Positions 44,119 to 59,169 of a stretch of DNA of 64,000 bases are shown here, piece after piece. The notes beneath the pieces were generated by a model, which was given only the letters and a program-made list of their open reading frames with translations, was not told the origin of the DNA and made no database searches. Source of the DNA: Albidovulum sediminis (GTDB lineage: Bacteria > Pseudomonadota > Alphaproteobacteria > Rhodobacterales > Rhodobacteraceae). The translations under genes were made by a program, and so were the position numbers. Location of the stretch: the NCBI RefSeq assembly GCF_025380365.1, contig NZ_JAOCQF010000001.1:248001-312000 (forward strand), in the 5' to 3' direction. Numbering within the stretch: position 1 is the stretch's first letter; each line of letters starts with the position of its first letter.

Positions 44119-44376
44119 ATGCTGGTGCTCGACTGTCCCTTCTGCGGGCCCCGGAACGAAAGCGAGTTCGCCTATGGCGGGCCCGCCCTGGCGCCGCGCC
44201 CCGCCGATCCTTCGGCCGTCAGCGACGCGGACTGGGTCGACTGGCTGACGGTACCGCCGAACCCGATGGGCGAGGTCGAGGAGCGCTGGTGGCATCTGCG
44301 CGGCTGCGGCGCGTGGCTGACCGTGCGCCGCCACACCGTGACCCATGCGGTGACGGAGGTGCGCCTTGGGCGGTAA
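44119..44376 (+). CDS. soxD: Sarcosine oxidase subunit delta
   Basis: An 85-aa zinc subunit. CPFCGPRNESEF near the start gives Cys6 and Cys9, and HLRGCGAWLTVRRHTVTH supplies the further His and Cys ligands. Length and order (between soxB and soxA) are typical. It overlaps soxA by 11 bp. Confidence 0.95.
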   Translation: MLVLDCPFCGPRNESEFAYGGPALAPRPADPSAVSDADWVDWLTVPPNPMGEVEERWWHLRGCGAWLTVRRHTVTHAVTEVRLGR

Positions 44377-47299
44377 CGGGTGGCGGCTGGCGGAGGGGGG
44401 GCGCATAGACCGGTCGCGGCCGCTCCGGTTCCGCTTCGACGGGCGCGACCATGTCGGGTTCCACGGCGACACGCTGGCCTCCGCGCTGCTGGCCAACGGG
44501 GTGCGGCTGAGCGCGCGCAGCTTCAAGTATCACCGCCCGCGCGGGATCATGGGGGCGGGCGTGGAAGAGCCCGCGACGCTTGTCCATCTCGCGGGTGAGC
44601 TTGCCTCGGGCAACCGGCCGGCGACGACGCTGAGGCTGAGCGACGGGCTGGAGGCCTGGCCGGTGAATGCCTGGCCCTCGGCGCGGCTCGATATTGGCGC
44701 GGTCAACCAGATGATCGCGCGGCTGATCCCGGCGGGGTTCTACTACAAGACATTCAAATGGCCTGACTGGCACCTTTACGAACCGGCGATCCGGCGCGCC
44801 GCAGGGCTTGCGCCGGCCCCCGCGACGCCGCCCGACGGCGCCTGGGAGGCGCGCCACGCCCATGCCGACATCCTGATTGCCGGGGCGGGGCCGGCAGGCC
44901 TGATGGCCGCGCTGGTCGCGGGCCGGGCGGGCGCGCGGGTGATCCTGGCCGACGAGGGGATCGAGGCGGGCGGATCGCTGCTGACGCGCCGGCTCTCCAT
45001 TGCCGGCGCGCCGGCCTTGGACTGGGTCACGGCGGCGGTCGCGGAGCTTGCCGCCCTGCCGAACGTCATGCACCTGCAGGATGCGGCCGTCTGGGCCTGC
45101 CGCGAGCACAACCTTGTCATGGTCGAGGAGCGCGCGCCCTCCCGTCCCGCGATCCTGGGGCGAAGCTGGCGCGTCCGGGCGGGGCGGGTGATCACCGCGA
45201 CCGGCGCCATCGAGCGGCTCATGGTCTTCGAGGGGAACGACCAGCCGGGGGTCATGCTCGCCTCGGCCGCGCAGGCTTATGTCAACCGCTGGGCGGTCCG
45301 GCCGGGCCGGCGCGCGGTGGTCTTCACCAACAACGACAGCGCCTATGCCGCCGCGGCCGACCTGGCGCGCGCGGGCGTCGAGGTCGCGGCCATTGTCGAC
45401 AGCCGCGACCCGGTGCCGGAGCATGCCCGCGCGGCGTCAGCGGGCCTGCCCGTGCTGGCGGGCCACGTCGTGCGTTCGACGCAGGGCGGCCGGGCGCTGC
45501 GTGCGGTGACCGTGGCCCCCCTGGCGGGCGGCGGCGCGCGGCGGATCGACTGCGACCTGCTCGCCGTGTCGGGGGGCTGGAGCCCGGCGGTTCACCTCTA
45601 TTCGCAGTCGCGCGCGCCGATCGCCTGGGACGACCGGCTGGCCGCCTTCCTTCCGGCCGGACCCGCGGGGCCGGTCGCGGCGGCGGGGGCGGCCGACGGC
45701 GCGCTGGAGCTTGGCGTGGCCCTTGCCGACGGTGCAGCGAAGGCGCGGGCCGCCCTTGCGGACCTGGGGTTCGCCCCGCCCGATGCCGCCCTGCCGGAGG
45801 CGGAGGATCTGCCCTATGGCATCACCCCGCTCTGGACCGTGCCGGGCGCGGGGGCGAAGGCCTTCCTCGACATCCAGAACGACGTCACCGTGGCCGACAT
45901 CGAACTGGCCCTGCGCGAGGGCTATTCCAGCATCGAGCATGTCAAGCGCTACACCACCGGCGGCATGGGGCTCGATCAGGGCAAGACCGGCAACGTCAAC
46001 ATCATCGGCGCGGTGGCCGAGCGTCTGGGCAAGACCCCCGGCGAGGTCGGCGTGACCACCTTCCGACCGCCCTGGACGCCGGTCGAATTCGGCGCCATCG
46101 CCGGGCGGCGGTCGGGGCCGGTCGTCCTGCCCTATCGCCACACGCCGCTGACGGACTGGCACATGGACCAAGGCGCGGTGATCTACGAGGCGGGCGCGCG
46201 CTGGCGCCGGCCCGGCTACTACCCCCGCCTCGGCGAGGCGTTCCAGGACACCGTCAACCGTGAGGCGCGGACCGTGCGCGAGGGCGTCGGCATCTACGAC
46301 GGCGCCCCCTTGGGCAAGTACGAGATCAAGGGCCGGGACGCGGCCCGCTTCCTCGACTGGATCTACACCAATGTCTTTTCGTCCCTGACGGTCGGGAATG
46401 GCCGCTACGGGCTGATGCTGACCGACGACGGGCTGATCCTTGACGATGGCGTGTCGTTCCGGCTGGCCGAGGATCGTTTCGTCATGTCGACCTCTACCGG
46501 CAACGCCGATGCCGTCGGACAGCATATGGAGAAGTTGCTCCAGATCGAACGGCCGGACTGGCAGGTCATGATCACCAATGTCACCAGCCAGTGGGCGAAC
46601 GCGACGATCTGCGGCCCGAAGGCGCGTGCGGTGCTTCAGGCGATGGGCACCGACATCGACATGTCGCCCGCGGCCTTTCCGTTCATGTCCGTCCGCGACG
46701 GCCGGGTGGCGGGATTGCCCGCACGGGTCGCCCGCGTCTCCTTCACCGGCGAGTTGTCGTTCGAGGTCAACGTGCGCCCCCGCGACCTGCCCGCCCTTTG
46801 GGCCGCGGCGATGACGGCCGGCGCGCCCTTCGGCATCACGCCGATCGGGTCCGAGGCCAACCATGTGCTGCGGGTGGAAAAGGGCTTTCTCTCGCTCGGG
46901 CATGAGGTCGACGGCACCGCCGATCCCCATGACCTCGGCATGTCCTGGGTGATGGCGGCGGCCAAGCCCGACTTCATCGGCAAGCGGTCGGTGGACCTGC
47001 GCCGCGCCTCGGGCCGGCCACGCCGGGAACTGGTGGGCTTCCGCCCGCTCGACCCCGACCGGCAGGTTCCGGAAGGCGCGCCGCTGACCCCCGGCGGCCG
47101 GACCGAGGCGACCGAGGGCTTCGTCACCGCCTGCGTCTGGTCCGTGGTCGAGGGGCGCTGGCTGGGGCTGGCGCTGTTGCAGGACGGCCGTGCCCGGATC
47201 GGCACGCGGGCGCATGTGCGCCTGCCCGGTGGCGTGATCGAGGTGGAGCTTTGCCCGCCGGTCTTCCACGACCCGAAGGGGGAAAGGCTGCGGTCATGA
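44366..47299 (+). CDS. soxA: Sarcosine oxidase subunit alpha
   Basis: A 977-aa subunit. An N-terminal 2Fe2S-ferredoxin-like fold (FDGRDHVGFHGDTLASALLANG) without the cluster Cys pattern is followed by an NAD-binding domain (ADILIAGAGPAGLMAALVAGRAGARVIL, about residues 167-195) and, in the last ~380 residues, a GcvT-fold tetrahydrofolate domain. The released methylene group is passed to folate. Overlaps soxD and, by ATGA, soxG. Confidence 0.95.
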   Translation: MGGNGWRLAEGGRIDRSRPLRFRFDGRDHVGFHGDTLASALLANGVRLSARSFKYHRPRGIMGAGVEEPATLVHLAGELASGNRPATTLRLSDGLEAWPVNAWPSARLDIGAVNQMIARLIPAGFYYKTFKWPDWHLYEPAIRRAAGLAPAPATPPDGAWEARHAHADILIAGAGPAGLMAALVAGRAGARVILADEGIEAGGSLLTRRLSIAGAPALDWVTAAVAELAALPNVMHLQDAAVWACREHNLVMVEERAPSRPAILGRSWRVRAGRVITATGAIERLMVFEGNDQPGVMLASAAQAYVNRWAVRPGRRAVVFTNNDSAYAAAADLARAGVEVAAIVDSRDPVPEHARAASAGLPVLAGHVVRSTQGGRALRAVTVAPLAGGGARRIDCDLLAVSGGWSPAVHLYSQSRAPIAWDDRLAAFLPAGPAGPVAAAGAADGALELGVALADGAAKARAALADLGFAPPDAALPEAEDLPYGITPLWTVPGAGAKAFLDIQNDVTVADIELALREGYSSIEHVKRYTTGGMGLDQGKTGNVNIIGAVAERLGKTPGEVGVTTFRPPWTPVEFGAIAGRRSGPVVLPYRHTPLTDWHMDQGAVIYEAGARWRRPGYYPRLGEAFQDTVNREARTVREGVGIYDGAPLGKYEIKGRDAARFLDWIYTNVFSSLTVGNGRYGLMLTDDGLILDDGVSFRLAEDRFVMSTSTGNADAVGQHMEKLLQIERPDWQVMITNVTSQWANATICGPKARAVLQAMGTDIDMSPAAFPFMSVRDGRVAGLPARVARVSFTGELSFEVNVRPRDLPALWAAAMTAGAPFGITPIGSEANHVLRVEKGFLSLGHEVDGTADPHDLGMSWVMAAAKPDFIGKRSVDLRRASGRPRRELVGFRPLDPDRQVPEGAPLTPGGRTEATEGFVTACVWSVVEGRWLGLALLQDGRARIGTRAHVRLPGGVIEVELCPPVFHDPKGERLRS

Positions 47300-47871: not shown

Positions 47872-47908
47872 GAAACCATTGAAACACTCCGGGCAATTCG
47901 ACTGAAAC
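47872..47908 (+). promoter_or_regulatory. Three-box GAAAC array, site A (ahead of osmC)
   Basis: GAAAC occurs at 47872-47876, 47881-47885 and 47904-47908: two boxes 9 bp apart, the third 23 bp further. After box 2 comes ACTCCGGGC, almost identical to site C. The third box ends 80 bp before the OsmC start. This is the one site whose outer spacing is 10 bp shorter than in the other three, keeping the same helical face. Confidence 0.65.
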
Positions 47909-47988
47909 GCGGCGCCTCTAGGTCTTCGCCCCATCGGTCCGGACGGATCGAGCGAAACCAGACACACCGTCAATCCAGGAGAGATGAC

Positions 47989-48570
47989 ATGACCACCGCA
48001 ACCATCGAGAAACCCGCCCGCGTCGCCATGAACGGCGTCGACATCCCGACCTTCGTCGCCACGCTCGGCGTCGTGGGCCAAAACCCCGAGATCGCGCACT
48101 TCACCTTCCGCGCGAGCGGCGAATGGCTTTCGGGAACGCATTCGCGGACCAGCTTCGAGGGTTTCTTCGGCGCCATGGGCGAACAGAAGCACCGCCAGAG
48201 CTACGCGATCGAGGGCGACCATCCGCAGGTGCTCTGCGGGGCCGACAACGGCGTGACCCCGGTCGAGATGCTGCTGGCGGCGCTGTCGGCCTGCCTGACC
48301 GCGGGCATCGGCAACATCGCCGCGATGCGGCAGGTGAAGCTCCATTCGGTCGAGACCTCGATCGAGGGCGACATCGACCTCAACGGCATCCTCGGCCTCG
48401 ACAAGTCCGTGCGCAACGGCTTCTCGGGCATCCGCGCGACCTTCCGCATCAAGGGCGAGGCGTCCGACGAGGTGCTGGAGGCCATCGTTCACCAGTCCGT
48501 CGCGCGTTCAGCGGTGTTCGACGTGCTGACCAACGGCGTTCCCGTCACCGTCGCGGCCATCGCCGCGTGA
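47989..48570 (+). CDS. OsmC-family protein
   Basis: A 193-aa OsmC/Ohr-fold protein. The two family cysteines are visible in LCGADNGVTPVEMLLAALSACLTAGI (about residues 83 and 103), as are the HRQSYAIEGDHP and GIRATFRIKGEASDE blocks. OsmC proteins reduce organic hydroperoxides or handle reactive thiols. A CAGGAGAG ribosome site precedes the ATG. It is preceded by GAAAC array A and followed by a 58-aa gene. Confidence 0.88.
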   Translation: MTTATIEKPARVAMNGVDIPTFVATLGVVGQNPEIAHFTFRASGEWLSGTHSRTSFEGFFGAMGEQKHRQSYAIEGDHPQVLCGADNGVTPVEMLLAALSACLTAGIGNIAAMRQVKLHSVETSIEGDIDLNGILGLDKSVRNGFSGIRATFRIKGEASDEVLEAIVHQSVARSAVFDVLTNGVPVTVAAIAA

Positions 48571-48621
48571 CCGACCCGCAGGGGCCGCGCCGGCCCCTGC
48601 CGCAAAAGGAGCAGGACAGAG

Positions 48622-48798
48622 ATGAAACGGAAATTCGACACGCCCATGGGCAAGACCTACGGCCACGGCTTCGACGCCGTGACCGACCGCGCCGACATCC
48701 GCGCCTTCGTCACCTGGTGGAACGACAGGTCGGCCTTTCCCGTCGGCGGGCAGGCGCCGGAGCCGCTGGACCTTCCGGCCCCGCGCATGGCGGCCTGA
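48622..48798 (+). CDS. Small hypothetical protein (58 aa)
   Basis: A 58-aa basic-to-neutral protein beginning MKRKFDTPMGKTYGHGFDAV and ending in a Pro/Ala tail. A clear AAAGGAG site lies about 10 bp before the ATG and the spacing of 51 bp from osmC suggests co-transcription. I do not recognise a family. Two Trp and a His-rich start are the only notable features. Confidence 0.62.
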   Translation: MKRKFDTPMGKTYGHGFDAVTDRADIRAFVTWWNDRSAFPVGGQAPEPLDLPAPRMAA

Positions 48799-48901
48799 AA
48801 CCCCCCGCCATTCCACCCGAAGCGCCCGCGGCACCCTGCTGCGGGCGTCTTCGTTTCCGCGCGCCCCGGAGGTTTCCCCGGACGCGCCCCGGACCCACCG
48901 C

Positions 48902-48948
48902 GAAACAACTGAAACCGGAACCCCCGCCGCGCGCCATCGGCCTGAAAC
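48902..48948 (+). promoter_or_regulatory. Three-box GAAAC array, site B
   Basis: GAAAC at 48902-48906, 48911-48915 and 48944-48948; spacing 9 then 33 bp. It lies in the 197-bp gap before the flavin monooxygenase gene, the third box ending 47 bp before its ATG. Confidence 0.65.
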
Positions 48949-48995
48949 CTGGCGCTGGCATCCCGTGCCGAAAGCACAGGATCCCGGAGAAAACC

Positions 48996-50243
48996 ATGCC
49001 ATTGCACATTGATGTCGTCGTCATCGGCGCGGGCCAGGCCGGCCTTGCGCTCAGCCATTGCCTGACCGCCCGCGGCATCGAGCACGTGGTTCTGGACCGC
49101 GGCCGGGTCGGCGAACGCTGGCGGTCGGAGCGCTGGCCGGGCCTGCGGCTCCTGACGCCGAACTGGATGACGCAGCTGCCCGGACTGGCGCCCGACGTCG
49201 AGCCCGACGGCTTCATGCCGGCGGGGGAGTTCGCGGGCCTTCTCGACCGCTATGCGGAAAGCTTCCGCGCGCCTCTGGTCACGGGGTGCGAGGTGCTGTC
49301 GCTGGAACGCGGCGCGCGCGGCTTCGTCCTGCGCACGACTCTGAGCGGCTGGAGCGCGAACCAGGTGGTAATCGCGACCGGGGCCTGCGACAGGCCCGCC
49401 GTGCCCGACTGGGCGCGCGCGCTGCCCGCGGGGGTGCGCCAGGTGACGCCCGCCGCCTACCGCGGCCCCGACGATCTGGCGCCGGGCGGCGTGCTCGTCG
49501 TCGGCGCCTCCGCGACCGGCATCCAGATCGCCGGCGAAATCCGGCGCTCGGGGCGGCCGGTGACCCTTGCGGTCGGCCGCCATGTCAGGACGCCACGCCG
49601 CTATCGCGGGCGCGACATCTTCTGCTGGCTCGACGAAAGCGGCTTCCTGCGCCAGCCCCGCGACCCGGCTGCCGACAATGGCCGTCTGCTGGCGATGCCG
49701 TCGCTGCAACTGGCGGGCAACGCCGATGGCGGCGACATCGGGCTCGATCCGCTGGCGGCGCTTGGCGTCACCATCACCGGGCGCGCGACCGGGGTGCGGG
49801 ACGGGCGGGTGGAGTTCGCCGCGACCCTTGCGCGCGAACGGGCCGCGGCCGAGGCGCGGCGGCAGGGGCTCCTGGCCGGCATCGACCTGCATGTTTCACG
49901 GCACGCGCCTTATGCGCCGGAAGATCCCGCCGCCTGGGCAGCGCCCGCGCCGATGGCCGAAGGTCCGCGCACGCTCGACCTTTGCGGCGGCGCCGTCCGC
50001 ACGGTCGTCTGGGCCACCGGGTTCCGCCGCCGCTATCCGTGGCTGCGGCTCCCCGTCCTCGACGCGGCGGGAGAGATCGAGACGCGCGGCGGCAGGACGC
50101 GGATTCCGGGGCTTTTCGTCCTTGGCCTGCCGTTCCTGCGCCATCGCAGTTCGGCCTTCATCTACGGAGTCGGCCGCGATGCCGAATGGATCGCCGCCGC
50201 GATCGAGGCCGGACGCAGACATCCCCATCTGATTGCAGCCTGA
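48996..50243 (+). CDS. Flavin-containing monooxygenase-like NAD(P)/FAD oxidoreductase
   Basis: A 415-aa class-B-monooxygenase-like flavoprotein. FAD motif VVVIGAGQAGLALSH (residues 7-21), GERWRSERWPGLRLLTPN region and a second dinucleotide motif VLVVGASATGIQIAGEI near residue 167-183 are present, with WATGFRRRY near 344. Such enzymes oxygenate amines, sulfides or ketones with NADPH. It forms a two-gene unit with the next FAD gene (11-bp gap), under array B. Substrate unknown; a sulfur compound would fit the neighbouring thiol genes. Confidence 0.84.
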   Translation: MPLHIDVVVIGAGQAGLALSHCLTARGIEHVVLDRGRVGERWRSERWPGLRLLTPNWMTQLPGLAPDVEPDGFMPAGEFAGLLDRYAESFRAPLVTGCEVLSLERGARGFVLRTTLSGWSANQVVIATGACDRPAVPDWARALPAGVRQVTPAAYRGPDDLAPGGVLVVGASATGIQIAGEIRRSGRPVTLAVGRHVRTPRRYRGRDIFCWLDESGFLRQPRDPAADNGRLLAMPSLQLAGNADGGDIGLDPLAALGVTITGRATGVRDGRVEFAATLARERAAAEARRQGLLAGIDLHVSRHAPYAPEDPAAWAAPAPMAEGPRTLDLCGGAVRTVVWATGFRRRYPWLRLPVLDAAGEIETRGGRTRIPGLFVLGLPFLRHRSSAFIYGVGRDAEWIAAAIEAGRRHPHLIAA

Positions 50244-50254
50244 AGGAGAAGGCC

Positions 50255-51400
50255 ATGACCGGATCACAGACCCCGAACACCTACGATGCCATCGTCGTCG
50301 GCGCCCGCTGCGCCGGGGCGGCGGTGGCCATGCTCCTGGCGCGCCAGGGCGCGCGCGTGCTGGCGGTCGATCACGACCAGCCCGGCACCGACACGATGTC
50401 CACCCACGCGCTGATGCGCGGCGCGGTGTTCCAGCTGCGCAAGTGGGGCGTTCTGGCCGAAATGGAGGTCAGGGGAACGCCGGCCATCCGCCGCACCAGT
50501 TTCCTTTACGGCGACGAGGCCATCGACATTGACCTGAGGATGGAGCACGGCATCGACGCGCTGCTTGCCCCGCGCCGTGCCATTCTTGACGCCGCACTGG
50601 CTGGTGCGGCCGCAGCGGCAGGGGCGGAACTGCGCTATGGCACCGGGCTTGCCGGTCTCGTCCGCGACGCGGCGGGGCGGGTCTGTGGCGCCGAACTGCG
50701 CCTGCCCTCGGGCGGCATCGAAACGGTCCGCGCGCCCATCGTCATCGGCGCCGACGGCCGCCGCTCGGCGGTGGCGCGCCTGGCCGGGGCCGGCATCCTG
50801 CACCGGGGCCGCCACGCCGCCGCCTGCGCCTACCGCTATGTCGAGGGGCTGCCCAACCGCGGCTATCGCTGGCATTACGCGGCCGGGGCGGCAGGCGGGG
50901 TCATCCCCACGAACGAGGGGCTGAGCTGCGTCTTCGTCGCGCTGCCGCCGCCGGTCCTTGCCGAGGCCCGCGCCGCCGGGTGGGAGGCGCTTCTGCGCCA
51001 CGTCCCGACCCTGGGCGATGATCTTGCCTCTGCCCGCCCGGTCACCGCGCCGGTGGTGTTTCCCGGCCTGCCGGGCTACTTCCGCCAGTCCGCCGGCCCG
51101 GGCTGGGCGCTGGTCGGGGATGCGGGCTATTTCCGCGACCCGATCACCGCCCACGGGATCACTGACGCGTTCCGCGACGCCGAGATCCTGGCCGGGGCGG
51201 TGGTCCATGGCCGGGTTGCGGACTATCCGCTGACCCGCGATGCCCTGTCGCGCGACTTCTTCGAGCTGACCGACCGGCTCGCCTCGTTCGACTGGACGCT
51301 GGCCGAGGCGAAGGTGCTGCACCAGGCGCTCAACAAGACGATGAAGGCCAACCAGAACTGGATCGCCGGCATGGGAGACGGGCGGGCCGAGGCGGCCTGA
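50255..51400 (+). CDS. FAD-dependent oxidoreductase (geranylgeranyl-reductase/PHBH-like)
   Basis: A 381-aa flavoprotein. The N-terminal FAD loop is VVGARCAGAAVAMLLARQGARVLAVDHD (about residues 14-41), with GADGRRSAVARLAG near 164-177 and the third flavin motif GDAGYFRDPITAHGI near 288-302. This is the p-hydroxybenzoate-hydroxylase fold, found in aromatic hydroxylases and geranylgeranyl reductases. TGAAGGAGAAGG gives a strong ribosome site. Followed by a good terminator at 51420. Function unknown. Confidence 0.83.
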   Translation: MTGSQTPNTYDAIVVGARCAGAAVAMLLARQGARVLAVDHDQPGTDTMSTHALMRGAVFQLRKWGVLAEMEVRGTPAIRRTSFLYGDEAIDIDLRMEHGIDALLAPRRAILDAALAGAAAAAGAELRYGTGLAGLVRDAAGRVCGAELRLPSGGIETVRAPIVIGADGRRSAVARLAGAGILHRGRHAAACAYRYVEGLPNRGYRWHYAAGAAGGVIPTNEGLSCVFVALPPPVLAEARAAGWEALLRHVPTLGDDLASARPVTAPVVFPGLPGYFRQSAGPGWALVGDAGYFRDPITAHGITDAFRDAEILAGAVVHGRVADYPLTRDALSRDFFELTDRLASFDWTLAEAKVLHQALNKTMKANQNWIAGMGDGRAEAA

Positions 51401-51419
51401 TCCATCCGCCCGAACGCGC

Positions 51420-51445
51420 AAGACCCGCCTTCGGGCGGGTCTTTT
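51420..51445 (+). terminator. Rho-independent terminator of the two-flavoprotein operon
   Basis: A perfect 10-bp stem, AAGACCCGCC (51420-51429) with GGCGGGTCTT (51434-51443), closed by a TTCG tetraloop and followed by further T. It lies 19 bp after the FAD oxidoreductase stop. Confidence 0.85.
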
Positions 51446-51468
51446 CGCGTTCCGGGCCGGCCAACGGC

Positions 51469-51497
51469 AAAAAGGCCCGCCGGGTGTGGCGGGCCTT
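51469..51497 (-). terminator. Rho-independent terminator of the small minus-strand gene
   Basis: AAGGCCCGCC (51472-51481) pairs perfectly with GGCGGGCCTT (51488-51497) over a 6-nt loop; on the minus strand the stem is followed by a T-run (A-run 51469-51473 on plus). It ends the DUF1127-like gene and faces the plus-strand terminator at 51420, insulating both units. Confidence 0.8.
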
Positions 51498-51522
51498 CAG
51501 GCGCTTGCGCGCGGGCAAGGGG

Positions 51523-51672
51523 TCAGGCGCGGCGGGCGCGGGCGTTCACGTCGTCCACGAACAGGCCGATGTCGCGGCACAGGGACGGGGAAAGGTGGCG
51601 CACCGCGAAGTAGGCCCGGCGCTCCTCACGCCGTTTGCGCAGGGCATCGTAAAGGTCGTTGATCGCTTTCAT
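51523..51672 (-). CDS. DUF1127-like small basic protein (49 aa)
   Basis: A 49-aa, Arg-rich protein: MKAINDLYDALRKRREERRA near the start and HLSPSLCRDIGLFVDDV at the end. The L-x-D/R-DIGL ending resembles DUF1127 (YjiS-like) small proteins, which in alphaproteobacteria affect RNA turnover and phosphate/stress physiology. It has its own terminator. Two GAAAC boxes on the minus strand (51695-51691 and 51725-51721) lie upstream, hinting at shared control. Confidence 0.65.
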   Translation of the reverse strand: MKAINDLYDALRKRREERRAYFAVRHLSPSLCRDIGLFVDDVNARARRA

Positions 51673-51785
51673 CTCAGGGTTCCTTCCGGGGTTTCGATGC
51701 CCCTCTTTTCCACCCGCAGGGTTTCAGGGCGATGTCGCGGCGCGCCCGAATGCGCTTCAATTCCTTCGGCCGCGGCGGGCTGGCT

Positions 51786-51832
51786 GAAACAGTTGAAACA
51801 TTCCGGGCGGGGCGGCGACACACGTCTGAAAC
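51786..51832 (+). promoter_or_regulatory. Three-box GAAAC array, site C
   Basis: GAAAC at 51786-51790, 51795-51799 and 51828-51832; spacing 9 then 33 bp. Box 2 is followed by ATTCCGGGC, nearly the same as in site A. It lies between the DUF1127-like gene and the globin gene, 134 bp before the globin ATG. Confidence 0.65.
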
Positions 51833-51966
51833 AGCGGGCGGGGAGCATGGAGCCCCTCGAAGGCCGGAAATGCTTGCCACGCGGAGCCCGATTGCCCATG
51901 CTTGACGCTTACCAGTTCCTGTCGGCCGCCTGTTCCGGAGGCCCCGAGCATCAGGGAGGTGAACGC

Positions 51967-52323
51967 ATGCAGAAAACGCTGTTCGAGAAGTACGGCGGCT
52001 TCTCCTTTGTCAGCAAGATCGTGCTCGATCTCTACGACCGCCTGCTCGACGACGACGATATCGGACCGTTCTTCGACGATATCGAAATGGCGCGGATCGT
52101 GGACCATCAGACCAAGTTCATCTCCTCGCTCATGGGGGGGCCGGCCTCCTACACCGACGACCAGATCGAGAAGATGCACGCCCGGCTGTCGGTGACGCAC
52201 GCGCATTTCGACCGCCTGCAGGACATCTTGCGCGAAACGCTGGCCGATCACGGGATCGAACAGGCCGATGTCGATGCCATCGCCGCCTCGTTCGAGGGCC
52301 GGCGCGGTCGGGTCGTGGGATAG
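51967..52323 (+). CDS. Group-I truncated haemoglobin
   Basis: A 118-aa 2-over-2 globin. LFEKYGGFSFVSKIVLDLYDRLLDDDDIGPFFDDI and the conserved His-x2-Leu-x-Val-x3-HFD block (KMHARLSVTHAHFDRLQ), with the proximal His, are family hallmarks. It should bind haem and O2 or NO. ATG 51967 follows a strong GGGAGGTGA site; an ATG at 51898 would add unrelated residues. It is the first gene of a four-gene signalling operon, suggesting it supplies or scavenges the sensed gas. Confidence 0.87.
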   Translation: MQKTLFEKYGGFSFVSKIVLDLYDRLLDDDDIGPFFDDIEMARIVDHQTKFISSLMGGPASYTDDQIEKMHARLSVTHAHFDRLQDILRETLADHGIEQADVDAIAASFEGRRGRVVG

Positions 52324-52326
52324 GCC

Positions 52327-53376
52327 ATGTCCATCGCCGCGATCAACGAGCAGCTGCTGCGGGCGATCGGGGTGGGCGTCGCGCTCCTCGACCTCGATAC
52401 GATGCGGCTGCGCTTCTGCAACGACACCTTCCGCGAATGGTTCGGCGAGATCGAGGCGGGGCAGCATCTGGCCGACCTGTTCTCCGGTCTCGAGATCGAC
52501 GCGCTGAAGGCCGCCCTGCACGGCGAGGGGCGCTACAGCTCGGAAACGACCTTTCGCGTGCGCCGCCGCACCATGACGGTGGCGATGGCCTTCAACCGCG
52601 CGCTGGACGGCGAGGAACGCATCGTCGTCCTCGTCTGCCAGAACATCTCGCGGATCAAGGAGCTGGAATCGATGATCGATTCCTACTCGATGATGGTCGA
52701 GCGCAACACCCGCGAGATCCGGCGCGAGAAGGAGCAGGTCGAGAAGCTGCTGCTCAACATGATGCCGCGGTCGGTCTACGAGGAATACAAGACCTTCGGC
52801 ATCGTCACCCCGCGCCTCTACGATCCGGTCGCGGCACTCTGCCTCGACTTCGTGGGCTTTGCCGAGACGGTGGTCGAACATGACCCCGGCGTGATCGTCT
52901 CGGAGCTCAACGACATCTACACCGCGTTCGACCGCATCGGCGAACAGTTCGGCTGCGCCCGCATCCGCGCGGTGGGGGATTTCTACATCGCCGTCGCGGG
53001 CATGCCCGACCCGTCGGAGGACTACGCCCGGTCGGCGGCAAGTGCCGCCGTGCGCTACCTGCGCTATCTCCACCAGCGCAACGAAAGCCACCCGATCAAG
53101 TGGACCTGCCGCATCGGCATCGCCGCCGGCCCGGTGGTGGGGTCGGTCGTCGGCGTGCAGAAATACATCTACGACGTGTTCGGCCCGGCGGTCGTCCACG
53201 CCAGCCGCATGCGCGCCGCCGCGCGTCCCATGCAGATCGTCGGCAACCGCGACTTCGTCGACCGTCTCGACGACCGTTTCGCCACAGCCCCCGCAGGCCG
53301 CCTCGACCCCGGCGCGGAGTGCCGGGACGAGGCCTTCGCGATCACGGCCGAGGTTCACGCCGGCCAGGACGGCTGA
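52327..53376 (+). CDS. PAS-linked class III adenylate/guanylate cyclase-like protein
   Basis: A 349-aa protein. Residues ~5-115 are a PAS-like domain; ~115-155 form a coiled coil (KELESMIDSYSMMVERNTREI, then KEQVEKLLLNMMP) like soluble guanylate cyclases; the rest is a class III cyclase fold. Metal Asp174 (CLDFVGF) and Asp218 (AVGDFY) are present, as is YDVFG with its Asp. The transition-state Asn of the NxASRM motif is His (VVHASRM), and the purine-recognition Lys reads Arg. It may be weak or altered. Starts 3 bp after the globin gene. Confidence 0.82.
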   Translation: MSIAAINEQLLRAIGVGVALLDLDTMRLRFCNDTFREWFGEIEAGQHLADLFSGLEIDALKAALHGEGRYSSETTFRVRRRTMTVAMAFNRALDGEERIVVLVCQNISRIKELESMIDSYSMMVERNTREIRREKEQVEKLLLNMMPRSVYEEYKTFGIVTPRLYDPVAALCLDFVGFAETVVEHDPGVIVSELNDIYTAFDRIGEQFGCARIRAVGDFYIAVAGMPDPSEDYARSAASAAVRYLRYLHQRNESHPIKWTCRIGIAAGPVVGSVVGVQKYIYDVFGPAVVHASRMRAAARPMQIVGNRDFVDRLDDRFATAPAGRLDPGAECRDEAFAITAEVHAGQDG

Positions 53377-53377
53377 C

Positions 53378-55306
53378 ATGGCCGCCGGGCTCGAACCTTC
53401 CGTTCCGGACGGCGTCGGCATCGGGGAGGACGCGGAGGCGCAGAGCGCGGATCTTCTGGTGGAGGTGATCGACGCGCTGTCGGTGGGGCTTGCGATCTTC
53501 GACGAGGACGCCCTTCTGCAACGCTGCAATGCCGGGTTCCGCAGGATGAACCCGGTGCTGGCCGATCTGCTCGAGATCGGCATGGGCTGGGATATCATCC
53601 TGCGGGAATGGGCCCTTCGCGGCGGTATCCCCGCCCCGGCGCGCGACCGTCTCGAAAGGGCCGAGGCGCGGCTGGCCGATGGCGAGGCGACGGTCGCCCC
53701 GCTCGAATTCGGGATCGGCGGCTCGGTCTTCGAGATCGCCATGCGCGCGACGGCAGCCGGCGGTTTCGTCCTGGTCCAGAACGACATCACCGAGCGGCGC
53801 AACCTGGAGCAGAGCGAGCGCGAGGCCGACCTTCTGCTGCGCAAGGTGCTGGAGGCCTGCCCGGCCAACATCGTCATGTCGCGCGTGGGCGACGGCGAGG
53901 TGATCTACCGCACTCCGGCGGCAACGGAACTTCTCGGGACGGCGAAGCGGACCCACGGCATCTTCGCCTCGCGCGAGGAGCGGGCGGATTTCATCACCGC
54001 CCTTCTGCCCGACGGGCGCGTGGACAACATGACGGTGACCGGCCTGCGCGCCGACGGCACACGCTTTCCCTGCGTCATCTCGGCCCGGCTGATCGACTAC
54101 CGGGGCGAGGATGTGATGGTCTCGACGACGGTCGACATCAGCCGGGAAATCCAGTTGCGCCGCACCCTGGCCGAGCAGCGCGAACAGATCTTCCAGGCCG
54201 AGAAGATGTCGGCGCTGGGCGAGTTGCTGGCTGGCGTGGCGCACGAGCTGAACAACCCGCTGTCGGTCGTCGTGGGCCATGCGCTGATGCTGCGCGACGA
54301 GGATATCGACCCCGAGACGCTGAGGCGGGTGGAAAAGATCAGCGATGCCGCCGAACGCTGCGCGCGGATCGTGAAGTCGTTCCTGGCGATGGCGCGCCAG
54401 CAGCCGGCGCGGCTGGTTCCCGTCGATCTGGGCGAGACGCTGGAAATGGCGATCGAGGCGCTGCGCAACGGCGCCGATGGCCTTCAGACCGCGATCGACC
54501 TCGACATCGCGGACGCCCTGCCGCCGGTGCGCGGCGACGCCCACCAGATCGCCCAGGTCGTCATCAACCTTGTCACCAACGCCGATCAGGCGATCCGCGA
54601 CAGCGGCACGGGCGACCGCGTGCGTATCTCGGTGCGCCTCGACGACCGGCAGGGCATGGTCGAGATCACCGTGGCCGACAACGGCCCCGGCATCCCCGAC
54701 GCGATCCAGGGCCGCATCTTCGACCCGCTCTACACGACCAAGCCCGTGGGCAGCGGCACCGGCATCGGGCTGGCGCTTTGCCACCGCATCGTGACGGCAC
54801 ACTCCGGCCAGATCCGGGTGCTGCCCGACCGCGGCACGGGTGCGGTCTTCGTCGTCCGCCTGCCGGTGACGCGCGGCGATGTCCTGCCCGAGGGGACCGG
54901 CGGGCTGGCCCGCGCGGGCGGGTCGCGCGGCCGCATCCTCGTCGTCGACGACGAGGAGGACGTCGTCGACCTGATCCGCGAGGTGCTGGTCCGGGCGGGC
55001 TTCGACGTCGATACCGCGGCCTCGGCGGAAGCCGCGCTTGCGATGGTGGAGGAGGGCGACTATGCGCTGATCCTGACCGACCTCAACATGCCGGGGATGG
55101 GCGGGCGCGGCCTTTACGAGCGCCTTCTGCGCGAACGCCCGGCGCTGGCCCGGCGCACCGGCTTCGTCACCGGCGACACGATGAGCCCGCAGGCGCGCGG
55201 CTTTCTCGACGGCGCCGGGCGGCCGTGCCTTGAAAAGCCGATCGCGCCGGCGGAACTGAGGAAGCTCGCCGAAACCATGCTGGGAAGCCGGGGGGCGCCG
55301 GGATGA
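53378..55306 (+). CDS. Hybrid sensor histidine kinase (PAS-PAS-HisKA-HATPase-REC)
   Basis: A 642-aa soluble hybrid kinase with no membrane segments. Two PAS-like domains (about residues 25-140 and 150-265) are followed by HisKA with phospho-His289 in AHELNNP, HATPase motifs NLVTNADQAI, DNGPGIP and GSGTGIGLALC, and a C-terminal receiver with phospho-Asp568 (LTDLNMPG). Sensing is therefore cytoplasmic; PAS domains could carry haem, FAD or another ligand. It begins 1 bp after the cyclase stop and overlaps the response-regulator gene by 4 bp. Confidence 0.9.
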   Translation: MAAGLEPSVPDGVGIGEDAEAQSADLLVEVIDALSVGLAIFDEDALLQRCNAGFRRMNPVLADLLEIGMGWDIILREWALRGGIPAPARDRLERAEARLADGEATVAPLEFGIGGSVFEIAMRATAAGGFVLVQNDITERRNLEQSEREADLLLRKVLEACPANIVMSRVGDGEVIYRTPAATELLGTAKRTHGIFASREERADFITALLPDGRVDNMTVTGLRADGTRFPCVISARLIDYRGEDVMVSTTVDISREIQLRRTLAEQREQIFQAEKMSALGELLAGVAHELNNPLSVVVGHALMLRDEDIDPETLRRVEKISDAAERCARIVKSFLAMARQQPARLVPVDLGETLEMAIEALRNGADGLQTAIDLDIADALPPVRGDAHQIAQVVINLVTNADQAIRDSGTGDRVRISVRLDDRQGMVEITVADNGPGIPDAIQGRIFDPLYTTKPVGSGTGIGLALCHRIVTAHSGQIRVLPDRGTGAVFVVRLPVTRGDVLPEGTGGLARAGGSRGRILVVDDEEDVVDLIREVLVRAGFDVDTAASAEAALAMVEEGDYALILTDLNMPGMGGRGLYERLLRERPALARRTGFVTGDTMSPQARGFLDGAGRPCLEKPIAPAELRKLAETMLGSRGAPG

Positions 55307-56001
55307 GCGACCATGTCCTGATCTGCGACGACGAGGCCGACCTGCGCGAGATGCTGGCCGAATACCTGGGCAAGCGGGGGTTCCGCACCACGCTGGCCGC
55401 GGGGGCCGCGGACCTGCGCGCCGCCCTTCAGCGCGAAAGGCCCGACGTCATCCTGCTCGACATCGCCATGCCGGGCGAGGACGGGCTGTCGGTCCTGCGC
55501 AGCCTTCAGGGCCCGGATGCGCCGCTGGTCATCATGCTGACGGCGGCGGGCGAGGTCGTCGACCGGATCGTCGGGCTCGAGATGGGGGCGGACGACTATC
55601 TGGCCAAGCCGGTGGACCTGCGGGAGCTTGTCTCGCGCATCAAGGCGGTGCTGCGCCGGCGCACCGCCCCCGCCCCGCAGCCCGAGACCGAGCGGACGCG
55701 GTTCCGCTTCGGCAAGACCTGGCTCGACCTCGCCGGGGCGCGGCTGATCGACGAGGACGGTCAGGAGATTCCGCTGACCTCGATGGAGTTCAACCTGCTG
55801 AAGCTTTTCGCGAAGAACCGGGGCAGGGTGCTCAACCGCGACCAGATCCTCGAGGGCGCGCACGACCGGTCCTGGGACCCGTTCGACCGGTCAATCGACA
55901 TCCGCATCTCGCGCATCCGCAAGAAGATCGAGGCCAATCCCGCCAAGCCCGAGGTCATCCGCACGGTGCGCGGCGTGGGCTACATCTACGACCCCTCCTG
56001 A
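55303..56001 (+). CDS. OmpR-family response regulator
   Basis: A 232-aa regulator. Receiver with acidic pair DDEADLRE and phospho-Asp53 (LLDIAMPG), LTA and Lys (AKPVDLREL); C-terminal winged helix (LTSMEFNLLKLFAKNRGRVLNRDQIL, then SIDIRISRIRKKI and the TVRGVGY wing). OmpR-type proteins bind tandem direct repeats, so it is the natural candidate to read the GAAAC arrays. Its stop codon overlaps the first box of array D. Confidence 0.92.
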   Translation: MSDHVLICDDEADLREMLAEYLGKRGFRTTLAAGAADLRAALQRERPDVILLDIAMPGEDGLSVLRSLQGPDAPLVIMLTAAGEVVDRIVGLEMGADDYLAKPVDLRELVSRIKAVLRRRTAPAPQPETERTRFRFGKTWLDLAGARLIDEDGQEIPLTSMEFNLLKLFAKNRGRVLNRDQILEGAHDRSWDPFDRSIDIRISRIRKKIEANPAKPEVIRTVRGVGYIYDPS

Positions 56002-56046
56002 AACATTTGAAACCGCGAAGCACCGGGGGCGCAATCGCGCCGAAAC
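56000..56046 (+). promoter_or_regulatory. Three-box GAAAC array, site D
   Basis: GAAAC at 56000-56004, 56009-56013 and 56042-56046; spacing 9 then 33 bp as in sites B and C. The first box begins inside the TGA stop of the response-regulator gene. It precedes the 57-aa gene and the cysteine synthase-glutaredoxin gene. Confidence 0.65.
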
Positions 56047-56188
56047 GGTCGCGCCGCATGTTCGCGCCATCCACCCCGACCGTGGATGCCGGCAGGACAC
56101 CCCCGCCTTTCATCGTGGCTGCGGTCCCCGGCGTGGCACGGCCGGCCCCGTCAACCCACCCCGTCACTCCAACCGGAAGGTTACCGAA

Positions 56189-56373: not shown

Positions 56374-57876
56374 ATGACACGCACCCTGAACAGCCTTCTC
56401 GACACCATCGGCAACACACCCGTCGTCCGCCTTTCGCGTATGGCGCCGGAGGGCGTCGAGGTCTTCGTCAAGCTCGAAGCCTTCAACCCGATGGGTTCGG
56501 TCAAGGACCGCCTGGCGATGGGCATCATCGAGGCAGCCGAGCGTGACGGCTCGCTGCGCCCCGGTCAGACGGTGATCGAGGCGACCAGCGGCAACACCGG
56601 CATCGGGCTGGCGATGGTCTGCGCGGCCCGGGGCTATCCCCTCGTCGTCACCATGGCCGAGAACTTCAGCGTCGAGCGGCGCCGGCTGATGCGGTTCCTG
56701 GGCGCGAAGGTGATCCTGACGCCGGCCTCCGAAAAGGGCTCCGGCATGGTCGCGAAGGCGCGCGAACTGGCCGAGCGGCATGGCTGGTTCCTCTGCCGCC
56801 AGTTCGAGAACGAGGCCGGACCCGACATCCATTCCCGCACCACGGCGGAGGAGATCCTGCGCGATTTCGCCGGGGCGCCGCTCGACTGCTTCGTCTCGGG
56901 CCTCGGCACCGGCGGCACGATGAAGGGCGTCGCGCGGGTGCTGAAGGCGCAGAGCCCCGCGACCCGCATCATCGCGGCCGAACCCGACAACGCGCCCCTG
57001 CTGGGATCGGGCCGCGCGCAATCCTATGCGCCCGACGGCGGCCCTGCGGCCAGCCATCCGGCGTTCCGGCCGCACCTGATGCAGGGCTGGACTCCGGATT
57101 TCATCCCCCGGCTGGCCGCCGATGTCGTCGCGGCGGGCCACATCGACGAAATCTGCCCCGTCGCGGGGGCCGAGGCGCTGGCCGTGGCGCGGGATCTGGC
57201 GCGGAAAGAGGGGATCCTCTGCGGCATCACCGGCGGGGCGACGCTGGCCGCGGCGCTGACGGTCGCACGCCGCGCACCGAAGGGCGCGCGCATCCTCGCG
57301 ATGCTGCCCGACACCGGGGAACGCTACCTCTCCACCCCGCTTTTTGCCGACATCGACGCGGCGATGGACGCGGAGGAACAGGCCATCGCCGCCTCCACGC
57401 CGCGGTTCCGCTTCGACACCGCCGCCGCGCCGGCCCCGGCTGCAGCGGCGGCCCCCGAAGCGCCGGCCCCCGACGCAATCGCCCACATGGAGGCGCTGAT
57501 CGCGGACCCGGATCATCCGGTCGTGCTGTTCGCGCTGGAATGGTGCGAATTCTGCTGGTCGGTGCGCAAGCTGCTGGCCGCCGCCGGCGTCCCGTTCCGA
57601 TCTATCGATCTCGACGGCGCGGCCTACCGCGAGGGCGACCTCGGCGGGGCGGTCCGCAAGGCGCTTGCCGCCCGGACCGGTGCCGCGACGATCCCGCAGG
57701 TCTTTGTCGGCGGGCGCCACGTCGGCGGCGCGACCGAGACGTTCGAGGCCTTCAACGACGGCAGCCTGGGGCGGATGCTGGCCGCGCTCGGCCACGAGGT
57801 CCGCGGCGCGGAGGTGGGCAATGCCTACCGCTTCCTGCCGGCCTGGCTTCACCCGCGCACGCCGAAGGCGGCCTGA
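56374..57876 (+). CDS. Cysteine synthase fused to a C-terminal glutaredoxin domain
   Basis: A 500-aa fusion. Residues 1-~315 are a PLP-dependent O-acetylserine sulfhydrylase/cystathionine-beta-synthase-type domain: GNTPVVRLSR, PLP-Lys in GSVKDRLA (about residue 43), TSGNTGIGLA and SGLGTGGTMKGVA. An Ala/Pro linker (about 345-367) leads to a glutaredoxin domain with CEFC active site (WCEFCWSVRKLL, about residue 391) and TIPQVFVGGRHVGG. It could link sulfide/persulfide incorporation with glutathione-dependent reduction. Short tail of ~30 residues. Start at 56374; spacing 11 bp from the upstream small gene. Confidence 0.86.
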   Translation: MTRTLNSLLDTIGNTPVVRLSRMAPEGVEVFVKLEAFNPMGSVKDRLAMGIIEAAERDGSLRPGQTVIEATSGNTGIGLAMVCAARGYPLVVTMAENFSVERRRLMRFLGAKVILTPASEKGSGMVAKARELAERHGWFLCRQFENEAGPDIHSRTTAEEILRDFAGAPLDCFVSGLGTGGTMKGVARVLKAQSPATRIIAAEPDNAPLLGSGRAQSYAPDGGPAASHPAFRPHLMQGWTPDFIPRLAADVVAAGHIDEICPVAGAEALAVARDLARKEGILCGITGGATLAAALTVARRAPKGARILAMLPDTGERYLSTPLFADIDAAMDAEEQAIAASTPRFRFDTAAAPAPAAAAAPEAPAPDAIAHMEALIADPDHPVVLFALEWCEFCWSVRKLLAAAGVPFRSIDLDGAAYREGDLGGAVRKALAARTGAATIPQVFVGGRHVGGATETFEAFNDGSLGRMLAALGHEVRGAEVGNAYRFLPAWLHPRTPKAA

Positions 57877-57909
57877 ACGGCCGTGCCCGACGCCCCGAAA
57901 GGATATACG

Positions 57910-59169
57910 ATGACACCGTCCCGCACCCCAGAACCCGCCTTCCGCTGGGTGATCGTCGCCGCCGCCGCGGCGATGCTCGCCATCGCGATGGGGCAGCTTG
58001 TCAACGGCCTGTCGGCCTTCCTCGCGCCGCTCGAGCGGGAATTCGGCGCGACACGGGGGCAGGTCGCGCTGGTCAACACGATGGGGCTTGTCGGTCTGGC
58101 GATCGGCGGGATCGTCATGGGCGCGCTCGCCGACCGCGTCAGCATCCGGGCCGTCGTCCTTGCCGGGGCGGTGATGACCGGCCTTTGCATCGCCACCGCA
58201 TCGCAGGTGACGGCACTCTGGCAGCTTCACCTGCTGTTCCTCGTCGCCGGCGCGCTCGGGGGCGGCGCGCTCTTCGCCCCGCTCTTTGCGCTGGTCGGCA
58301 CCTGGTTCCGCACCGGCGCCGGTCTGGCCATCGGCATCGTCTCGGCCGGGCAGGCGATCGGGCAGGGGGGCGTTCCGCTGGCCAACGCGCTCCTGATCGA
58401 GAGCCTGGGGTGGCGCGGGGCCTTCCTGGCGGTCGGGCTGGCATCGCTTGCGCTGCTCGTCCCGCTTGCCCTGCTAGCCCGGCGGCCCGGCGCACGGCCC
58501 GGTCCGGCCGCCGCCGCCCAGCCGGGACAGGCGGCCGGGGGCGCCGCTGCCATGCGCCCCGCGACCGTCATCGCGACGCTCAGCCTGGCGGTGCTCTGCT
58601 GCTGCAGCCTGATGTCGGTGCCGCTGATGCACCTGGCCCCGCTGGTCCAGCTTTGCGCCATCCCCGCACCGGAGGCCGCGGGCGTGGTGATGGTGATGAT
58701 GCTGGCCGCGATCGCGGGCCGCGTGGCCTTCGGCCGGCTGGCCGACATGATCGGCGCGCTGCCGGCCTATTTCGCCGCCTCCGCCTGGCAGACCGCGCTG
58801 GTGGTCATGTTCACCTGGATCGACGATCTTGGCCTGTTCTACATCTTCTCGCCGATCTACGGCTTCGGCTATGCGGGCGTGATGACCGGCGTGCTGACCA
58901 CGATCCGCGCCCTGACGCCCCTGAACCGGCGCGCCGGCGCCACGGGGATCATCCTGGCCTTCGCCTGGATCGGCCACGGGCTTGGCGGTTTTCTCGGCGG
59001 TGTCTTCTTCGACCTGACGGGAAGCTACGACCTCAGCTTTGCCGCCGCCATGGCCGCGGGGTTGGTGAACCTGATCACGATCGGCGCCCTTGCCTGGTGG
59101 GTGCTGCGCGGACCGGCCGGGCGGGCAACGGTCAACGGGTCTTTTGCCGCGGGCTCTGGCCGGATATGA
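57910..59169 (+). CDS. MFS transporter (monocarboxylate/OFA-like)
   Basis: A 419-aa major facilitator with 12 hydrophobic segments. FRWVIVAAAAAMLAIAMGQLVNGLSAFLAPLEREFG and the GALADRVSIR loop (motif A) between helices 2 and 3 are present; the central loop is Ala/Pro-rich. The ATG at 57910 is preferred over GTG 57883 because AAAGGA lies 8 bp upstream. It sits 33 bp after the cysteine synthase-glutaredoxin gene and may move its substrate or product. Direction and substrate unknown. Confidence 0.83.
   Translation: MTPSRTPEPAFRWVIVAAAAAMLAIAMGQLVNGLSAFLAPLEREFGATRGQVALVNTMGLVGLAIGGIVMGALADRVSIRAVVLAGAVMTGLCIATASQVTALWQLHLLFLVAGALGGGALFAPLFALVGTWFRTGAGLAIGIVSAGQAIGQGGVPLANALLIESLGWRGAFLAVGLASLALLVPLALLARRPGARPGPAAAAQPGQAAGGAAAMRPATVIATLSLAVLCCCSLMSVPLMHLAPLVQLCAIPAPEAAGVVMVMMLAAIAGRVAFGRLADMIGALPAYFAASAWQTALVVMFTWIDDLGLFYIFSPIYGFGYAGVMTGVLTTIRALTPLNRRAGATGIILAFAWIGHGLGGFLGGVFFDLTGSYDLSFAAAMAAGLVNLITIGALAWWVLRGPAGRATVNGSFAAGSGRI

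Follow-up and report, generated by a model that had tools for sequence, protein, structure and literature searches.

PhoB promoters carry tandem half-sites 11 bp apart, located ~10 bp upstream of the -10 element and without a -35 element. As to published sites, a half-site pitch of 10–11 bp has been reported for the OmpR/PhoB family (PMC3798270, PMC4832192, PMC9275681). The sites of Escherichia coli ArcA often comprise three or more direct repeats, with an 11-bp core pitch, and are degenerate (PMC3798270), and the C1 site of ompC, a target of E. coli OmpR, contains TTTTGAAACATC (PMC2586830). CenR of Rhodobacter sphaeroides—an essential protein with a cell-envelope regulon—uses a TGA-N8-TGA direct repeat, which lies upstream of the -35 element in activated operons (PMC9275681). 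Here, we analyze a 64,000-nt stretch of the Albidovulum sediminis genome (assembly GCF_025380365.1, contig NZ_JAOCQF010000001.1, positions 248,001 to 312,000; hereafter, the window), in which four arrays of GAAAC boxes stand ahead of the four operons of an 8-kb island. As judged from sequence comparisons, these arrays are very probably the operators of the island’s own OmpR/PhoB-family response regulator (RR; 55303-56001), making up a single island regulon.

A sequence-only reading of the window had placed four sites of the form GAAAC-N4-GAAAC, each followed by a third box, at 47872 (A), 48902 (B), 51786 (C) and 56000 (D), and all four starts were confirmed. From the start of box 2 to that of box 3, array A spans 23 bp and the other three arrays 33 bp, just as described, and the sites precede the genes to which they had been assigned: an OsmC-family gene, two flavoprotein genes, the globin-cyclase-kinase-RR operon and a cysteine synthase-glutaredoxin (cysK-grx) gene. 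Arrays are listed below by the gap between boxes 2 and 3, along with a further half-site (3a) and putative -10 elements that emerged from the fine-structure analysis (Y denotes a pyrimidine).

47872..47908, plus strand: array A, ahead of osmC, 18-bp class; box 1 47872-47876, box 2 47881-47885, half-site 3a (GCAAT) 47893-47897, box 3 47904-47908
47919..47924, plus strand: putative -10 element of A, TAGGTC; has YA but lacks the closing T; TAG kept in all six aligned promoters
48902..48948, plus strand: array B, ahead of the flavoprotein pair, 28-bp class; box 1 48902, box 2 48911, half-site 3a (GCCAT) 48933, box 3 48944-48948
48959..48964, plus strand: putative -10 element of B, CATCCC; likewise YA without the closing T
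51786..51832, plus strand: array C, ahead of the signalling operon, 28-bp class; box 1 51786, box 2 51795, half-site 3a (GACAC) 51817, box 3 51828-51832
51843..51848, plus strand: putative, weak -10 element of C, GAGCAT; not Y at the first base, but with the A and the closing T
56000..56046, plus strand: array D, ahead of cysK-grx, 28-bp class; box 1 56000 (overlapping the RR stop codon), box 2 56009, half-site 3a (GCAAT) 56031, box 3 56042-56046
56057..56062, plus strand: putative -10 element of D, CATGTT; matches YANNNT

The window contains no further arrays, in line with the earlier reading: GAAAC-N4-GAAAC occurs exactly four times, as opposed to a mean of 0.03 (maximum 1) in 100 dinucleotide shuffles. 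Genome-wide (4.29 Mb, 20 contigs), the two-box pattern returned 17 matches versus four when read backwards, and an exact search for three-box arrays with a gap of 17–28 bp returned only the four island sites. The other 13 two-box sites lack a box 3 within that range and were rejected as arrays; checking them for coding frames was uninformative because the island sites, too, sit in long stop-free frames in this GC-rich genome. With up to three mismatches, the 28-bp form recovered B, C and D plus two three-mismatch extras (reversed control: one match), and the 18-bp form with up to two mismatches recovered A alone. The 27-bp form, searched with mismatches, and the 17-bp form, searched exact only, gave no match in the genome. 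Allowing mismatches hence brought in no further convincing array above the control level.

Among 101 relatives, a free-gap three-box search found matches in 15 genomes, including seven of the 22 from the same genus (the source genome counted). Ten of the 15 were island-type. Single matches in G026, G030, G033, G064 and G075 were treated as chance; G033 alone was inspected, and its match (locus L105) has a 26-bp gap and lacks an island homologue. Within the genus, arrays stand ahead of orthologous operons in loci that hold the whole island (L099, L100, L101) or part of it (L102, L103, L104), and the perfect array is missing at some promoters in some of these genomes. Alignment of six osmC promoters revealed CGAAACCATTGAAACA to be invariant, followed by GCAATT, CTGAAAC and TAG, all kept amid divergent sequence; the boxes of array A are unchanged across five aligned same-genus osmC promoters. 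The sequence-only reading had named two outcomes that would speak against it, namely boxes not kept in the same promoters of relatives and a pattern at chance frequency; the same-genus orthologous loci argue against the former, and shuffle and genome counts, which place the array far above chance, against the latter. The inter-box sequence differs between A, B, C and D. The heptamer TCCGGGC noted earlier after box 2 is indeed shared by A and C, but is absent from the five osmC- and two globin-promoter orthologues checked and, because it is not kept in relatives’ promoters, probably reflects chance; the conserved stretch near its position in osmC promoters is GCAATT.

To extend the survey, we searched from an alignment of RR orthologues, which yielded 264 relatives in named genomes, and kept the best 80 loci (1.54 Mb), from Defluviimonas, Salipiger, Ruegeria, Roseovarius and Shimia to Qipengyuania, Novosphingobium, Nitratireductor, Hoeflea and Kiloniellaceae. 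We take the array-bearing genomes among them to span several alphaproteobacterial orders. Nine of the 80 loci, which were retained in these counts, come from genomes already present in a 23-locus cyclase set (see below). The two-box pattern occurred 128 times in 70 of the 80 loci, compared with six times in the reversed control and a mean of 3.35 (maximum 7) in 20 dinucleotide shuffles; the three-box motif occurred 106 times in 63 loci (reversed control, 0; shuffle mean, 0.05), and restricting the gap before the third box to 17/18 or 27/28 bp left 105 arrays, versus none in shuffles. A single one of these 105 overlaps an island-gene homologue. GAAAC ranked top among all 1024 pentamers in the RR loci, with the next two (TGAAA and AAACA) being its own shifts. 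Boxes 1 and 2 were separated by 4 bp in 128 cases, as opposed to 2–16 cases at each gap of 0–3 and 5–15 bp, while the gap between boxes 2 and 3 was 17 (6 counts), 18 (11), 27 (32) or 28 bp (59), with one or two counts each at 5, 26, 29, 35, 43, 44 and 53 bp. The means of the two spacing classes differ by 10.0 bp. Because the gaps fall into a 17/18- and a 27/28-bp class, the remark that array A is one helical turn shorter than B, C and D generalizes to an operator-wide rule.

After merging identical sequences, 120 distinct arrays remained for inspection of the fine structure. Boxes 1 and 2 follow the consensus TGAAACAATTGAAACA. Eleven base pairs before box 3 lies a hidden fourth half-site, 3a: G at -11 was found in 65/65 arrays of the 28-bp class (consensus GACA), in 33/33 of the 27-bp class (consensus GAAA(A/T), with T at -12 in 24/33) and, more weakly, in 16/21 of the 17/18-bp class. 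All four window sites have G at this position. Downstream, YA at +15/+16 from the start of box 3, i.e. 10 bp after the box, marks the beginning of a -10-like element: A at +16 was present in 64/65 (28-bp class) and 15/21 arrays (17/18-bp class), and in the 27-bp class both T at +15 and A at +16 occurred in 32/33. In the 28-bp class, T at +20, which completes YANNNT, was favored (34/65). Across the arrays, no TTGACA-like -35 element was conserved where one would be expected. The half-site pitch is 11 bp in the proximal pair (3a and box 3) and 9 bp in the distal pair (boxes 1 and 2).

The arrays track the regulator gene. An RR homologue at E below 1e-85 defined 12 of 394 family genomes as RR-positive. 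Strict arrays (T before box 2; gap of 17, 18, 27 or 28 bp) occurred in seven of these 12 versus six of the 382 others (one-sided Fisher p 4.6e-9), and permitting C before box 2 as well gave 9/12 versus 18/382 (p 1.6e-9), although such counts and p values overstate independence because genomes and genes share kinship. Within the fetched stretches of 23 cyclase-orthologue loci, a two-box site was found in 9/9 from genomes with a close RR and in 0/14 others; one of the 14, G415, encodes a 57%-identical RR on another contig. Among the six array-bearing genomes that were not RR-positive, G304 has two arrays, one with osmC-type sequence. A search prompted by these arrays revealed, within 4 kb, a protein 87% identical in the RR’s DNA-binding domain, whose N-terminus reads like that of a receiver-less protein in L104. 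Such proteins, in which Pfam detects the DNA-binding domain but no receiver, sit beside arrays in the same-genus genomes G006, G017 and G019 (L104, L102 and L103, respectively), and a further one lies near arrays in L215:

L104, 2764-3396, plus strand: receiver-less DNA-binding-domain protein, by Pfam
L102, 2595-3248, minus strand: receiver-less DNA-binding-domain protein, by Pfam
L103, 6682-7320, minus strand: receiver-less DNA-binding-domain protein, by Pfam; frame runs to the contig end
L215, 1168-1821, plus strand: receiver-less DNA-binding-domain protein, by reading

No copy of the kinase or of a full-length RR turned up within the fetched stretches of L102–L104. Given these receiver-less relatives near arrays (L102–L104, G304), the arrays, on the evidence of the sequences, follow the RR’s DNA-binding domain even without the receiver.

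The regulator itself combines a receiver with a Trans_reg_C winged helix:

55303..56001, plus strand: OmpR/PhoB-family response regulator, proposed array binder; PF00072 6.8e-27, PF00486 2.1e-24

Its D53 is present in all 11 aligned receiver-bearing proteins. In the PDB, its DNA-binding domain is closest to a small group including OmpR and an RstA, and the aligned recognition helices read DRSIDIRISRIRKKIE in the RR and ERSIDVQISRLRRMVE in OmpR. The next-best paralogue in the source genome shares 45% identity in the domain. By NCBIfam-type models, the RR is an equivalog of neither namesake: it falls short of both the PhoB model TIGR02154 (164.4 bits, cut-off 296.2) and the OmpR model (232 bits, cut-off 331). 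The OmpR-like recognition helix and the joint occurrence of gene and arrays support the protein at 55303 as the likely regulator, which the sequence-only reading had singled out for binding assays.

We propose that each array consists of head-to-tail half-sites, with the proximal pair (11-bp pitch) replacing the -35 element 10 bp before the -10-like element and the distal pair (9-bp pitch) about two or three helical turns upstream, a separation that would place both pairs on the same face of the DNA. Phosphorylated RR would probably occupy both as touching tandem dimers, and the proximal pair would drive activation, as in the case of PhoB. The regulon here would comprise the island’s four operons including the RR’s own, implying feedback. 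Sequence computation establishes the array, its spacing classes, the fourth half-site, the conserved YA and the association with the regulator gene; from these we infer RR binding, its dependence on phosphorylation, activation over repression (probable from the promoter geometry) and, on the sensor side, globin-to-kinase signalling.

Several observations weigh against this proposal. The distal pitch of 9 bp falls below the 10–11 bp reported for the family, so that these two boxes might be recognized in some other way or by a different protein. T at +20 is not favored in the 27-bp (7/33) or 17/18-bp class (2/21), and YANNNT is complete at one of the four window sites, D. Ten of the 80 RR loci, including four whose stretches are shorter than 13 kb, lack any two-box site, and strict arrays are absent from five of the 12 RR-positive genomes (G185, G211, G254, G270 and G300), with relaxed sites in the first three. 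Conversely, G187, G133, G162 and G288 have one strict match each without a regulator domain at threshold, and the strict match of G291 is not on the contig of its weaker RR homologue. To the kinship of the genomes mentioned above must be added that the T before box 2 was required only after the sites had been seen, and that co-location may also mean an island inherited as a unit.

Other explanations fit these data less well. Four alike sites within 8 kb of one genome might suggest chance or recent duplication of one promoter inside the island, an account to which we attach next to no credence given that the inter-box sequences differ and that the array recurs across alphaproteobacteria with exact spacing classes, far above shuffles. 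Nearly as implausible is that the boxes are promoter elements of an extracytoplasmic function (ECF) sigma factor: some ECF factors use GGAAC/GAAAC-like -35 elements, but three boxes plus a fourth half-site do not suit such a promoter, and box 3 lies 10 bp from the conserved YA, whereas an ECF -35 is expected about 16–18 bp from its -10. A different regulator might bind the arrays, with the RR a mere passenger. The 27-bp-class proximal pair resembles CenR’s TGA-N8-TGA (PMC9275681). In L104 and, judging by the gene’s sequence, also in L102, osmC has a LysR neighbor, and array-bearing genes have TetR neighbors in L099 and L154. Still, strict arrays occur in few genomes, mostly together with this RR or its DNA-binding domain, and neither LysR nor TetR was found among the scanned genes of the window island’s four operons, making a CenR-like OmpR-family protein or a LysR/TetR neighbor an improbable owner.

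The alternative that deserves most weight accepts the RR as binder and has it mainly repress, blocking polymerase up to the -10 element until the signal arrives. Box 3 and half-site 3a do sit where polymerase would contact the -35 region; yet, with no TTGACA-like -35 conserved, the promoters look activator-dependent, and a distance of 10 bp between the final box and the -10 matches that of PhoB-activated promoters, so that repression appears unlikely. A single regulon with direct-repeat operators, as the sequence-only reading had suggested, hence seems the best interpretation of arrays that lie above chance and are kept in relatives’ promoters. The fourth half-site, the -10-like element, the broad distribution and the kind of sensor go beyond that earlier reading.

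With respect to the input, we turned to the signalling genes downstream of array C. Gene families here and in the remainder of the island were assigned by Pfam and NCBIfam profile searches:

51967..52323, plus strand: truncated globin; PF01152 2.1e-15
52327..53376, plus strand: PAS-coiled-coil-class III cyclase, soluble-guanylate-cyclase-like; PF00211, PF13188, PF07701; degenerate at its catalytic residues, with K to R and N to V
53378..55306, plus strand: PAS hybrid histidine kinase with receiver; PF12860, PF00512, PF02518, PF00072

In a set of 84 distinct cyclase loci (nine genome-repeating loci removed), the globin is the gene immediately before the cyclase in 84/84. The catalytic set D-K-D-D-N-R reads D-R-D-D-V-R in the window cyclase, which thus does not classify as active. 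The set is intact in 0/38 loci with a kinase directly downstream versus 44/45 without; one further locus, clipped at a contig end, has a degenerate cyclase. We rejected counting this association as many independent cases, as all 38 kinase-neighbor rows fall within one clade of 39 in a quick tree of 83 rows (L098 also removed; Shimodaira–Hasegawa-like approximate likelihood ratio support 100, no bootstrap). On account of this single clade, cyclase decay is, by the tree, one evolutionary event plus the long-branch L092, and the degenerate protein has long been maintained. An AlphaFold2 model of the window cyclase (14 sequences; mean predicted local distance difference test score, pLDDT, 80.2; predicted TM-score, pTM, 0.55) retrieved soluble guanylate cyclase at ranks 1–15 of a PDB search (TM-score by query length 0.51–0.67). 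A Pfam scan found no H-NOX domain in the cyclase chain, and the globin is encoded separately.

The input to the regulon is probably heme-based, in that the truncated globin, together with the soluble-guanylate-cyclase-like pseudocyclase, would steer the hybrid kinase, which would then phosphorylate the RR; we infer that globin and pseudocyclase exert this control by contact. As to the signal, a diatomic gas (nitric oxide, for example), sulfide or cyanide can be guessed at, suggested by the MSMEG_0569-type flavoprotein relative, CysK, the globins and the DsrE and rhodanese-like genes of L099 (see below); our guess for the output is a chemistry of thiol/redox enzymes and flavoproteins. Taken as a whole, the island may be a self-contained heme-sensing regulon, in which a truncated globin takes the place of H-NOX in a split receptor akin to soluble guanylate cyclase, a pseudoenzyme cyclase signals to a hybrid kinase by contact, and an OmpR-like RR reads a four-half-site operator with a helical turn added or removed, tandem dimers cooperating over two or three turns—a composite we put forward tentatively, as possible though open to considerable doubt.

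The other island genes are as follows:

47989..48570, plus strand: OsmC-family protein; PF02566 3.4e-18
48622..48798, plus strand: 58-aa open reading frame (ORF) between osmC and array B; no Pfam or NCBIfam match
48996..50243, plus strand: flavin-dependent oxidoreductase, relative of the MSMEG_0569 family; TIGR04046 304.6 bits, below the cut-off of 498.35; PF13738
50255..51400, plus strand: FAD-binding monooxygenase/reductase-like protein; PF01494 9.6e-18
56374..57876, plus strand: cysteine synthase-glutaredoxin fusion; PF00291, PF00462; TIGR01139 362.6 bits, above the cut-off of 350.95
57883..59169, plus strand: MFS transporter; PF07690; starts 6 bp past cysK-grx

The transporter probably shares an operon with cysK-grx. 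The OsmC-like protein is kin to a family with selenoproteins (NF041052, 49.7 bits, below the cut-off of 95) and has Cys in its CGADNG motif. ORFs similar to the 58-aa frame were detected by tblastn in the same place in the same-genus loci L099–L101, L103 and L104. Between the flavoprotein genes and array C, a 49-aa ORF on the minus strand (window 51523-51672) has no Pfam match; presumably, it resembles a DUF1127/YjiS-type protein. The island is flanked by genes at 44366-47299 and 59242-61692, whose Pfam domains were scanned and which we take to be sarcosine-oxidase-alpha-like and dimethylglycine-dehydrogenase-like; given these flanks, the island may have inserted into a methylated-amine gene cluster.

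Inspecting the genes downstream of the 105 arrays in other genomes revealed kinases (30), OsmC (14), the globin (12), alpha/beta hydrolases (11), flavoproteins (7), EamA transporters (4) and classical globins (3). These are minimum counts, since ORF calling went astray at several GC-rich sites and picked spurious frames; identities were scanned for one EamA protein, one classical globin and one hydrolase beside an array (L166). The classical second globin (PF00042, one member scanned) follows an RR-following array in L109, L114 and L117. A YgjV-type membrane protein is encoded behind a two-box site in L099 (2048-3517) and a 17-bp-class array in L154 (11480-12247); in L099, DsrE and rhodanese-like genes come next, which suggests a tie of the array-linked genes there to sulfur chemistry.

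We recognized no published account of the array, the regulon or the globin-cyclase-kinase operon among the open-licence matches listed, which is weak evidence of novelty; the CTATW repeats of PMC7755780 are unrelated. What emerges is apparently an undescribed small regulon, conserved along with its regulator gene in many alphaproteobacteria. A regulator of so-far unassigned role thereby gains a sharply defined predicted operator and a target list, and the two spacing classes, differing by one helical turn, offer a natural test of how tandem RR dimers cooperate along DNA. If true, globin, pseudocyclase and kinase together would form a bacterial equivalent of soluble guanylate cyclase, with the nucleotide cyclase turned from enzyme to signal adaptor.

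Like soluble guanylate cyclase, the predicted sensor has the order PAS-coiled coil-cyclase and a proposed heme protein input; it differs in that a separate truncated globin stands in for H-NOX, the catalytic residues are lost and a kinase follows. From PhoB, the arrays share the 11-bp proximal pair, the ~10 bp to a -10-like element and the missing -35, whereas the box sequence is another and a distal pair is added. The island kinase is a PAS hybrid kinase, whereas OmpR’s EnvZ is of another type, and the targets differ; the likeness to OmpR lies in a DNA-binding domain among the closest solved ones and a C1 site containing TTTTGAAACATC (PMC2586830). CenR, too, is an OmpR-family protein with a direct-repeat site from a related bacterium (PMC9275681); in contrast to CenR, the RR was found in 12 of 394 family genomes (E below 1e-85) and its arrays serve one island here, and TGA-N8-TGA is resembled by the 27-bp-class proximal pair only, the proximal pairs of A–D being without it. 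ArcA, likewise of the OmpR/PhoB family, has extra elements one or two helical turns off the core and a variable architecture within its regulon (PMC3798270). The arrays described here differ from its sites by the 9-bp distal pitch, the rigid GAAAC and the confinement of nearly all arrays to 17/18 or 27/28 bp; nonetheless, ArcA offers the nearest known operator architecture.

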